A stretch of DNA of 32,285 nt from a bacterium (GTDB taxonomy: Bacteria; Patescibacteriota; Minisyncoccia; UBA6257; GWB1-50-10), in assembly GCA_002686365.1 (NCBI GenBank), contig NZBZ01000018.1, forward strand, positions 1 to 32,285. The letters are read 5' to 3'. The position numbers and the translations under genes are program-made. Below are positions 16,430 through 18,309 of this stretch, one piece after another. Each line of letters begins with the position of its first letter. Positions within the stretch are counted from its first letter, which is position 1. The notes beneath the pieces are model-generated. The model did no database searches. It was given only the letters and a program-made list of their open reading frames with translations, and was not told where the DNA came from.

Positions 16430-16759
16430 TTATCTATTGTCTCCGCCCCCCTTTAAGACTCCGCGCTCTTTGCGGGACTTTAGTTTTTCGATGTTCTCCT
16501 CTGCGATATCGTCAAACGAAATATCCAGCTGCGTTGCCAGCTCTGCAAGATACCAGAGAGCATCTCCAAGTTCTTTTTTGAGATCTTCCCTTGTCTCATC
16601 TGTAATCTTTCCGTGCTTATCCCGAAATATTTTCTTTACTTTGTTTGCAATCTCTCCTGTTTCCCCTGCAAACCCAAGCATGGGATAAACAATCTTCCCT
16701 TCAACCTCTACCTCGAATGCGGTTGTGTGCGCCTTTTTTTGGTATTCACTTAAATCCAT
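16430..16759 (-). CDS. MazG-like nucleotide pyrophosphohydrolase
   Basis: GFAGETGEIANKVKKIFRDKHGK...DLKKELGDALWYLAELATQLDISFDDIAEENIEKLKSRKERG, MazG-type EExxE/ExxD helices. Confidence 0.92.
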   Translation of the reverse strand: MDLSEYQKKAHTTAFEVEVEGKIVYPMLGFAGETGEIANKVKKIFRDKHGKITDETREDLKKELGDALWYLAELATQLDISFDDIAEENIEKLKSRKERGVLKGGGDNR

Positions 16760-17044
16760 CCCTCACATAACTTGCGCTAAGGTATACCTTAGTCGCTCCT
16801 TCAAGCGACGCAGACCTTGCGCGTTATATTTTAGAGCATGCTCTCGACTATATGCATCTTCTTTTGATATAAATGCTTCATAATAGATTAATTGCCATGG
16901 GATATATTTTTTAGTATAGCTTGATTTCCCTGCATTGTGTCCTTCTATTCTTTTCTTCAAATCATTGGTACAGCCTATATATAACCCCCCATCCTTCTTT
17001 GATTTTAAGACATACACATAGAACATGCGTAAGTTATGTGAGGG
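16760..17044 (-). mobile_element. Candidate mini-transposon: TIR-bounded element carrying one GIY-YIG ORF
   Basis: Minus strand ends CCCTCACATAACTTACGC ... GCGCAAGTTATGTGAGGG (17/18 complementary); flanked on both sides by ATGGAT, the second copy being the mazG start. Subterminal palindromes TAAGGTATACCTTA (16778..16791) and GTCGCT/AGCGAC (16792..16809). Confidence 0.7.
16763..17026 (-). CDS. GIY-YIG nuclease-family small protein
   Basis: MFYVYVLKSKKDGGLYIGCTNDLKKRIEGHNAGKSSYTKKYIPWQLIYYEAFISKEDAYSREHALK. YVYVLKS...LYIGCTND is the GIY-YIG core. Confidence 0.9.
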   Translation of the reverse strand: MFYVYVLKSKKDGGLYIGCTNDLKKRIEGHNAGKSSYTKKYIPWQLIYYEAFISKEDAYSREHALKYNAQGLRRLKERLRYTLAQVM

Positions 17045-17073
17045 ATCCATGAGTTTATTATATCTTTATTCTT

Positions 17074-18309
17074 CTACTTCGTCATAGACCTTTTTGCTCT
17101 TAATTTTTTGTGAAATGCAATGGCAAAACGATGCGCCTCGTTTCGAACGCGGATTAGGGTGTTTTCAGATACCCAATTAGGTATTTTGCCAAAGAATTCG
17201 TTTTTCTTTCGTTTTGGGCCCTTTGCAATGCCTATTACTGGGATTTTCATGCCATGTTCGGATAAGACGCTTTTTACAGCGCTTATTTGTCCCCTGCCTC
17301 CATCAATAAGCATAAGGTCTGGGAATTTCCACTCTTTATGCCTGAGACGCCTCTCTAAAACTTCTTTTATCATGCCTGTGTCACTCTGACCCTTGATGCT
17401 GTAAATCTTAAACTTTCTGTATTCGTTCTTATTTGGCCTGTCTCCGTAAAACACTATCATTGATCCAACTGCTGATGTGCCGGAGATATTTGAAATATCA
17501 TATCCTTCGATACGTCTAGCTTTTAGCTTATAGCTTATAGCTTCATTAGCTTTTTGTTCTCCTAACACTGCAACGTCTTGAATGTGATTTAAAGCAAAGA
17601 TTTGGCGCTTGATCTTTGCAGCGCGTTCAAATTCAAGATTCTTGCCTGCAGTTTTCATTTCGCGTTCGAGCTCTCGAATAATCTGTTTTTTTCTGCCCTG
17701 AAAAAAGAGTTTTATTTTTCTTATTATTTTCTTGTAATCAGTTTTTGTTATCTCTCCTACACATGTTCCTGGGCATAATCCAACTTGCGCATCAAAGCAT
17801 GGACGAGCTTGTGCTCCTACCTTCTCTTGTGAATGAAGGCTCCATGAGAAGATTCTACGAAGTATGCGCAGGCCTTCTCGAATTGCATGAGCATAGATAA
17901 ATGGACCAAATATTTTTCTAGCTTTTAGCTTATAGCTTATAGCTTCATTAGCCTTCTCTTTGCCACGGACGAGAAGGACGCGCGGGAACTCTTCATTTGT
18001 TATCTCTACATATAAAAATGTCTTGTCATCTTTTTGCAGAACATTGTACTGGGGCTGATGCTTTTTAATAAGTTCTGCTTCAAGTATAAGAGCTTCGAGT
18101 GCAGAGTCGGTTTTTTTATGATTTACGGTTTTTATCTCTCCTGCCATTTTTTGAATACGAGAGCCGTGCGGACGAGTAAAGTAGCTTGAAACACGCCGTT
18201 TTAGATTCGCAGCCTTACCAATATATAAAATCTTCTTATTTTTATCTTTGAAAATATACACTCCCGGAGTTTGGGGTAGGTTTTCAAAGGGTTTTTTAAT
18301 TATTGACAT
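17074..18309 (-). CDS. uvrC: Excinuclease ABC subunit C (short form, with two internal repeat peptides)
   Basis: LPQTPGVYIFKDKNKKILYIGKAANLKRRVSSYF; RPCFDAQVGLCPGTCVGEI; UVR-like KNLEFERAAKIKRQI; RIEGYDISNISGTSAVGSMIVFYGDRPNKNEYRKFKI. Ends before any C-terminal HhH region. Confidence 0.96.
   Translation of the reverse strand: MSIIKKPFENLPQTPGVYIFKDKNKKILYIGKAANLKRRVSSYFTRPHGSRIQKMAGEIKTVNHKKTDSALEALILEAELIKKHQPQYNVLQKDDKTFLYVEITNEEFPRVLLVRGKEKANEAISYKLKARKIFGPFIYAHAIREGLRILRRIFSWSLHSQEKVGAQARPCFDAQVGLCPGTCVGEITKTDYKKIIRKIKLFFQGRKKQIIRELEREMKTAGKNLEFERAAKIKRQIFALNHIQDVAVLGEQKANEAISYKLKARRIEGYDISNISGTSAVGSMIVFYGDRPNKNEYRKFKIYSIKGQSDTGMIKEVLERRLRHKEWKFPDLMLIDGGRGQISAVKSVLSEHGMKIPVIGIAKGPKRKKNEFFGKIPNWVSENTLIRVRNEAHRFAIAFHKKLRAKRSMTK
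17516..17550 (-). repeat. AAGCTAT-type heptad repeat within uvrC, copy 1
   Basis: ctagcttttagcttatagcttatagcttcattagc; identical to 17918..17952; encodes ANEAISYKLKA in frame. Confidence 0.95.
17918..17952 (-). repeat. AAGCTAT-type heptad repeat within uvrC, copy 2
   Basis: 35 nt identical to 17516..17550, same reading frame, just before the conserved FGPF of UvrC. Confidence 0.95.

Follow-up and report, generated by a model that had tools for sequence, protein, structure and literature searches.

A 285-bp element with terminal inverted repeats and a lone GIY-YIG nuclease gene at the start codon of a mazG-like gene in a patescibacterial genome

The window analyzed here comprises 32,285 nucleotides (positions 1 to 32,285 of contig NZBZ01000018.1, assembly GCA_002686365.1) of a member of the Patescibacteriota, and all of its features discussed here are read on the minus strand. 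A uvrC-like gene (17074-18309) provides the upstream context and is followed by a TATAAT box resembling a -10 box (17057-17062), located 6 nt upstream of the first ATG, by an open reading frame for a GIY-YIG nuclease (16763-17050) and by a mazG-like gene (16430-16759). A mobile element of 285 bp (16760-17044) lies at the mazG start codon, so that the order on the minus strand is ATGGAT, CCCTCACATAACTTACGC ... GCGCAAGTTATGTGAGGG and then ATGGATTTAAG of mazG; in longer quotation, the mazG-side sequence is ATGGATTTAAGTG. The first and last 18 bp are terminal inverted repeats (TIRs) complementary at 17 of 18 positions. The left TIR, 5' relative to the reading frame, occupies 17027-17044 and includes a 12-bp core (17033-17044) common to all copies in the genome, and the right TIR occupies 16760-16777 with its core at 16760-16771. 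ATGGAT is found directly outside both ends: the copy at 17045-17050 is the former mazG start and now a usable in-frame start for the nuclease (MDPSHN...), and the copy at 16754-16759 is the regenerated mazG start. Translation from the former yields 95 amino acids, and from an internal ATG at 17026 it yields 87. The TGA stop codon lies within the right TIR, 3 nt ahead of the mazG ATG. Next to this TIR are hairpins (16778-16809) formed by the nested palindromes TAAGGTATACCTTA (16778-16791) and GTCGCT (16792-16797) with AGCGAC (16804-16809), and shortened copies keep a hairpin at the same place. The codons of the catalytic S-R-E motif contain AGTCGA (16844-16849). No other open reading frame is present, and the element encodes neither a DDE transposase nor a reverse transcriptase. 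Every part of the preliminary description of this sequence, namely the TIRs, the ATGGAT at both ends, the palindromes and the stop codon within a TIR, was found again.

The neighboring uvrC gene carries a 44-nt direct repeat (17515-17558 and 17917-17960, 93% identical) which adds the peptide KANEAISYKLKAR twice, in frame. Its core pattern has two further matches in the genome (C1:113819 and C4:73879), and this looks like a separate family of in-frame repeat insertions.

Searching the genome with the TIR 18-mer at up to three mismatches returned 14 matches against none for the reversed control, and the 12-bp core CCCTCACATAAC at up to one mismatch returned 48 against 4 for the control. The core matches make up pairs spaced by 93-102 bp, the 285-bp element itself and palindromes of about 25-33 bp. 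Given the 18-mer counts and the recurrence of the core in pairs 93-102 bp apart, the TIR in the window is not a product of chance. Fifteen shortened copies of 93-102 bp share this TIR, and each occupies the start codon of a further gene; judging from the translations, we take the genes downstream to include those for ribosomal protein L9, enolase, YidC and L29. All fifteen follow the layout ATGNNT, CCC...GGG, ATGNN, NN being the same in the two flanks. An alignment that includes 14 other copies shows that in 13 of them the 12 bp at either end are unchanged or almost so, and most columns of the interior agree in only about 45% of pairs. The sole interior stretch that is nearly invariant is a central GTCG, which in the full-length copy falls within the codons for the catalytic S-R-E motif.

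A second family, with the TIR CCCGTTAGAGAC, is represented in the same genome by a full-length copy of 275 bp with a GIY-YIG gene and by four copies of 119 bp; each sits at a start codon, as ATGAAT..ATGAAn. The shortened copies of 93-119 bp thus meet the criterion for MITEs, given that there are two families, each having one full-length partner with the same TIR. ATGNN is duplicated in every start-codon copy of both families, which makes the duplication 5 bp long, or 4 bp (TGNN) when the T and A next to the TIRs are taken as their outermost pair. The preliminary description also offered a parse with a 2-bp duplication, GG, and TIRs that begin with AT. The other copies rule this out, as in them the ATG is always followed by the same two bases in both flanks (ATGAGT/ATGAGG, ATGATT/ATGATA, ATGAAT/ATGAAA). 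The proposal in that description, that a tiny mobile element with TIRs and a target duplication encodes a GIY-YIG nuclease as its sole protein and no transposase, is supported, also by the fifteen shortened copies at start codons, and has withstood the sequence checks suggested there.

The palindromes of 25-33 bp consist of two TIR cores almost abutting. They are found in genome G000 at C4:56774-56799, C16:10332-10356, C18:49518-49543 and C20:45405-45430, and at C1:76654, C4:190535 and C15:24429 (loci L011, L043, L014, L029, L035, L045 and L047). The one at C18:49518 retains ATGAAT/ATGAAA flanks at a gene start; the others are intergenic and their flanks differ. It is unclear whether they are the smallest mobile form, deletion remnants or terminators. 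Another GIY-YIG gene (L038, G000:C18:97726-100941) is located between partial and complete copies of a tRNA 5' half, and no clear TIR of the kind seen in the window was found there.

Empty sites are known from relatives. The mazG orthologs of two other genera of the family (L173 and L174) have no element at their start, as the preliminary description would have it, and the element-free L174 keeps the order uvrC-mazG-nfo. In another genome (G314), three copies (L111, L279 and L280) are 97-98% identical, and the pairs L111/L279 and L280/L279 match essentially from TIR to TIR only, their flanks, which are tRNA 3' ends, being different; the duplications at L280 and L279 are CGGCA and CCGA, respectively. 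Since the left flanks of L111 and L280 are also similar, these two may be part of a larger duplication. Tandem re-insertion into the regenerated site was observed at three loci (L195, L216 and L078). With copies in dozens of unrelated sites, short target duplications and diagnostic TIRs, mobility of the element is well supported, although movement is read from the sequence and no transposition has been observed.

Relatives of the GIY-YIG protein are present, often several at a time, in 90 of the 121 genomes of the order. A TIR score of at least 12 around the reading frame was obtained for 80 of 112 GIY-YIG loci in the order, as compared to 3% of 400 cross-paired controls. The TIR sequence varies by subfamily and usually starts with CCC. 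Direct repeats at the element ends are also in excess order-wide (15 of 74, against a null mean of 2.7 and a maximum of 6). The cross-phylum scan was based not on the subfamily of the window element but on the CCCGTTAGAGA subfamily (A2), with a search pattern in the protein, and it revealed 350 relatives in named genomes. There, 78 of 83 testable loci reached a TIR score of at least 12, 79 of the 83 being viral or genomic loci beyond the query set; given that A2 was picked by its TIR type, this is not an unbiased rate, for which 80/112 should be taken. According to record titles the hosts include Patescibacteria, Omnitrophota, Planctomycetota, Desulfobacteraceae, Syntrophaceae, Thermodesulfovibrionia, Schekmanbacteria, Stahlbacteria, Ratteibacteria and a Woesearchaeota archaeon. 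As these records are metagenome bins, an isolated unexpected host could reflect misbinning. Among phages, only two records of one Vibrio phage (37%) were matched; viral contigs contributed four loci, one of them with a TIR pair; no relatives of the protein were found on plasmids, and a search of a defence-system library gave no match. The family is widespread: relatives and reduced copies number in the hundreds and are scattered over many poorly known microbes. The preliminary description had suggested checking whether most relatives of the protein sit inside similar TIRs, and by both counts most sit inside a TIR pair of their own; it had considered its proposal refutable by orthologous uvrC-mazG junctions all carrying the gene without variation or by the lack of other genomes with the frame bounded by this TIR. 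Neither applies. The MITE-like copies, the inferred use of the host start codon by the GIY-YIG frame, the asymmetric hairpin and the multi-phylum spread go beyond that description.

The elements insert in one common orientation relative to the target gene. The right end lies within -8 to +15 nt of a same-strand ATG (frame of at least 60 codons) in 84 of 139 unique elements, and exactly at 0 in 49 of them; the left end is at a gene start on the opposite strand in only 3 of 133, random positions giving 7%. Targets other than start codons are tRNA 5' ends (5), 5' parts of RNase P RNA (2) and TTGAC(A) boxes (9), five of the nine boxes being followed by a -10-like box. Eight loci (L071, L073, L076, L078, L083, L101, L109 and L262) of one TIR subfamily, whose TIR is mostly CCCCGCACC, duplicate TTGA at TTGAC(A), in many cases ahead of a -10-like box, as if this subfamily targeted and rebuilt -35 promoter boxes.

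Among 44 non-redundant start-codon copies, the GIY-YIG frame is in frame with the host ATG in 27 (p=1.3e-4, chance being 1/3), and the 17 out-of-frame copies carry their own ATG. Eight copies lack their own ATG ahead of the core, and in every one of these the frame is open and in phase with the host ATG. The stop codon TGA overlaps the regenerated ATG as ATGA in 43 of 50 cases. Mini-ORFs begin at the duplicated ATG in several shortened copies. At the window locus, the TATAAT box probably marks the original promoter of mazG, with leaderless initiation, because a TATAAT-like box is similarly placed before mazG in both element-free relatives; this is consistent with the element having taken over a leaderless mazG start.

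When 18 short copies from both families were folded singly, a hairpin appeared immediately internal to the right TIR (mean z of -3.1 relative to dinucleotide shuffles, as opposed to +0.3 at the left end), and the stem sequences differ among copies. In 75 full-length elements the right region shows a mild but consistent effect (mean z -0.75; left -0.02, middle +0.02). RNAalifold applied to the MITE alignment recovered the TIR stem only, without covarying pairs, because a sequence alignment does not register these hairpins. Covariation is therefore not formally demonstrated, and the hairpin rests on per-sequence folding. No convincing covarying hairpin was found in the coding 3' end of the CCCGTTAGAGA subfamily.

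The window protein matches the Pfam GIY-YIG family (E=2.6e-16), and all of the residues invariant in 37 TIR-bound relatives (G18, R26, H30, E50, R61, E62 and K66) are present in it. Its model has a pLDDT of 90.9, its nearest solved structures are UPF0213 1zg2 (E=1e-13) and SLX1 7cq2 (E=7e-7), and both profile and model favor UPF0213 and SLX1 over I-TevI, to which, as to phage homing endonucleases, only weak matches were obtained. This affinity suits, without proving, an enzyme acting on hairpin, cruciform or branched DNA. At locus L096, two GIY-YIG domains share one continuous frame with tRNA-like sequence between them, possibly a nested insertion at a tRNA gene.

We consider the best explanation, with a probability of roughly two in three, to be an autonomous TIR element of about 285 bp whose sole gene encodes an Slx1/UPF0213-like GIY-YIG nuclease, which has MITE-like derivatives and which re-creates the gene starts that it enters. 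The sequences show that copies enter the 5' edges of genes, mostly at start codons but also at tRNA ends, RNase P RNA and TTGACA boxes, with a duplication of 4-5 bp; that the host start codon is duplicated, one copy lying before the reading frame of the element and the other still starting the host gene; and that shortened copies sharing the TIR have spread to further start codons. The steps that follow are inferred. The upstream ATG and the host promoter would express the nuclease, and at its stop codon, in the TIR or in the ATGA overlap, the ribosome would restart at the regenerated host ATG, because of which insertion into essential genes may be tolerated. The nuclease is presumed to act on single-stranded or cruciform DNA, in which it would recognise the right-end hairpin as well as the stem formed by the TIRs, and to cut there and at the target with a stagger of 4-5 nt, host repair then completing integration and leaving the duplication; MITEs would be mobilised in trans by the same enzyme. 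A role of the GIY-YIG protein as the recombinase is likely but unproven.

An unlikely but not negligible alternative is that the element is mobile, but that a conventional transposase acts on its TIRs in trans, as with ordinary MITEs, and the GIY-YIG protein only assists or is carried along. GIY-YIG enzymes are known as hydrolytic nucleases, and to our knowledge no strand-transfer chemistry has been established for them, whereas TIRs with short duplications are generally the usual signature of DDE transposition and one rve (DDE) transposase is encoded in the genome, on contig C2. The TIR core is, however, absent from this contig and occurs in the genome only singly or in pairs 25-33, about 57, 93-102 and 285 bp apart, and neither Y1_Tnp (PF01797) nor DDE_Tnp_1 was found in the genome. 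No larger element with the window TIR was detected either, which, given that the genome is 91.5% complete and in 21 contigs, could have been missed. Also, many TIR types all enclose a GIY-YIG gene, and the type tracks the GIY-YIG subfamily: on a tree of 109 proteins (72 columns, poorly resolved), TIR presence clusters with 15 changes against 29.8 in shuffled data (0/500), and for 34 elements of five common TIR types only 8 changes are needed, as for a TIR and gene inherited as one unit. Furthermore, the reading frame is intact in almost all copies, broken ones being limited to two among the TIR-bearing frames.

Much less can be said for a classical free-standing homing endonuclease gene, which cuts one allelic site and is copied by homologous repair. 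The fold is that of homing nucleases and the weak phage endonuclease and I-TevI matches point in this direction, but the dozens of non-homologous sites with their short duplications and diagnostic TIRs, together with near-identical copies at unrelated loci within one genome, do not. Homing was rejected on the grounds of insertion at multiple sites instead of one allelic recognition site. It is similarly improbable that the short copies are cis-regulatory leaders of the host, acting through an RNA hairpin, a leader peptide or translational control, and that the GIY-YIG copy is a chance fusion. Constant position and orientation at gene starts, the conserved right-end hairpin and the mini-ORFs would all agree with such leaders. 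They would not account for the target duplications, the orthologous loci without the element, the shared design of two unrelated TIR families or the full-length relatives in several phyla; no Rfam family corresponds to them, and identical TIRs enclose an interior with only about 45% identity in most columns. A self-splicing intron, or another insert removed at the RNA level, is scarcely conceivable despite the insertions in tRNA and RNase P RNA genes and the commonness of GIY-YIG in group I introns, as no Rfam match, and hence no conserved group I/II intron RNA structure, was obtained at the element or the MITE loci, and splicing is not needed because the duplication re-creates start codons and tRNA 5' sequences at the DNA level.

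The autonomous element that we favor shares with insertion sequences and MITEs the TIRs, short target duplications, a single gene and shortened, TIR-bounded non-autonomous copies in the genome. It differs from DDE insertion sequences in that its only protein is a GIY-YIG nuclease of 87-95 aa instead of a DDE transposase, and from insertion sequences also in its oriented insertion at gene starts, their regeneration and the right-end hairpin. REPIN-RAYT systems likewise pair a gene for a small protein with short non-autonomous repeats (about 100 bp), which are structured, end in palindromes and have hairpin features; in contrast to these (TnpA-REP, Y1 HUH), the window genome has no Y1_Tnp, the nuclease fold is different, and the copies have target duplications, lie at start codons and not outside genes, and include many autonomous ones across phyla. 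The catalytic fold and selfish spread are shared with GIY-YIG homing endonucleases (I-TevI type and free-standing Seg/Mob), from which the element is distinguished by a single-domain protein without a DNA-binding module, by TIRs and by multi-site insertion with duplications. Penelope-like retroelements are also transposable elements using a GIY-YIG nuclease, yet the element described here lacks a reverse transcriptase, is 285 bp long and TIR-bounded, and is bacterial and archaeal. The UPF0213/YhbQ-like proteins and SLX1, similar in fold and sequence, are host structure-specific or uncharacterised enzymes and not TIR-bounded elements.

Inserts with GIY-YIG reading frames that belong to neither intron type and appear to be outside homing have been reported in CPR rRNA genes (PMC11270868). 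No TIRs, duplications or MITEs were reported in that work, and the term 'inverted repeat' is absent from its text; these inserts may be the same elements. Searches of open-access papers, which did not extend to preprints and most subscription journals, brought up no account of GIY-YIG elements bounded by TIRs. A prior description cannot be excluded, since preprints were not covered, but the element type is apparently undescribed.

The classification of transposable elements follows the enzyme responsible for their movement, be it DDE, HUH, tyrosine, serine or Cas1. We lean, if only slightly, towards regarding these elements as a new class whose transposase is a structure-specific GIY-YIG nuclease of a single domain. 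On this reading, it recognises TIR and hairpin ends and inserts in a fixed orientation at the 5' edge of genes, start codons and promoters of the host are borrowed and the starts rebuilt, so that even essential genes tolerate insertion, and MITEs are served in trans; the class would extend over Patescibacteria, further bacterial phyla and, in one assembly or more, archaea. A TIR family moved by a GIY-YIG nuclease of about 90 aa alone would add an enzyme class to the transposable elements, and the element would rank among the smallest autonomous ones known. The parts are small and testable: an 87-aa protein, TIRs of 12-18 bp and a defined target. The element family explains the many small GIY-YIG genes annotated in CPR bacteria and may also account for the rRNA-gene inserts that the published survey could attribute neither to introns nor to homing. 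Entry at the start codon combined with its re-creation would constitute a new solution to the problem of inserting into gene-dense genomes.
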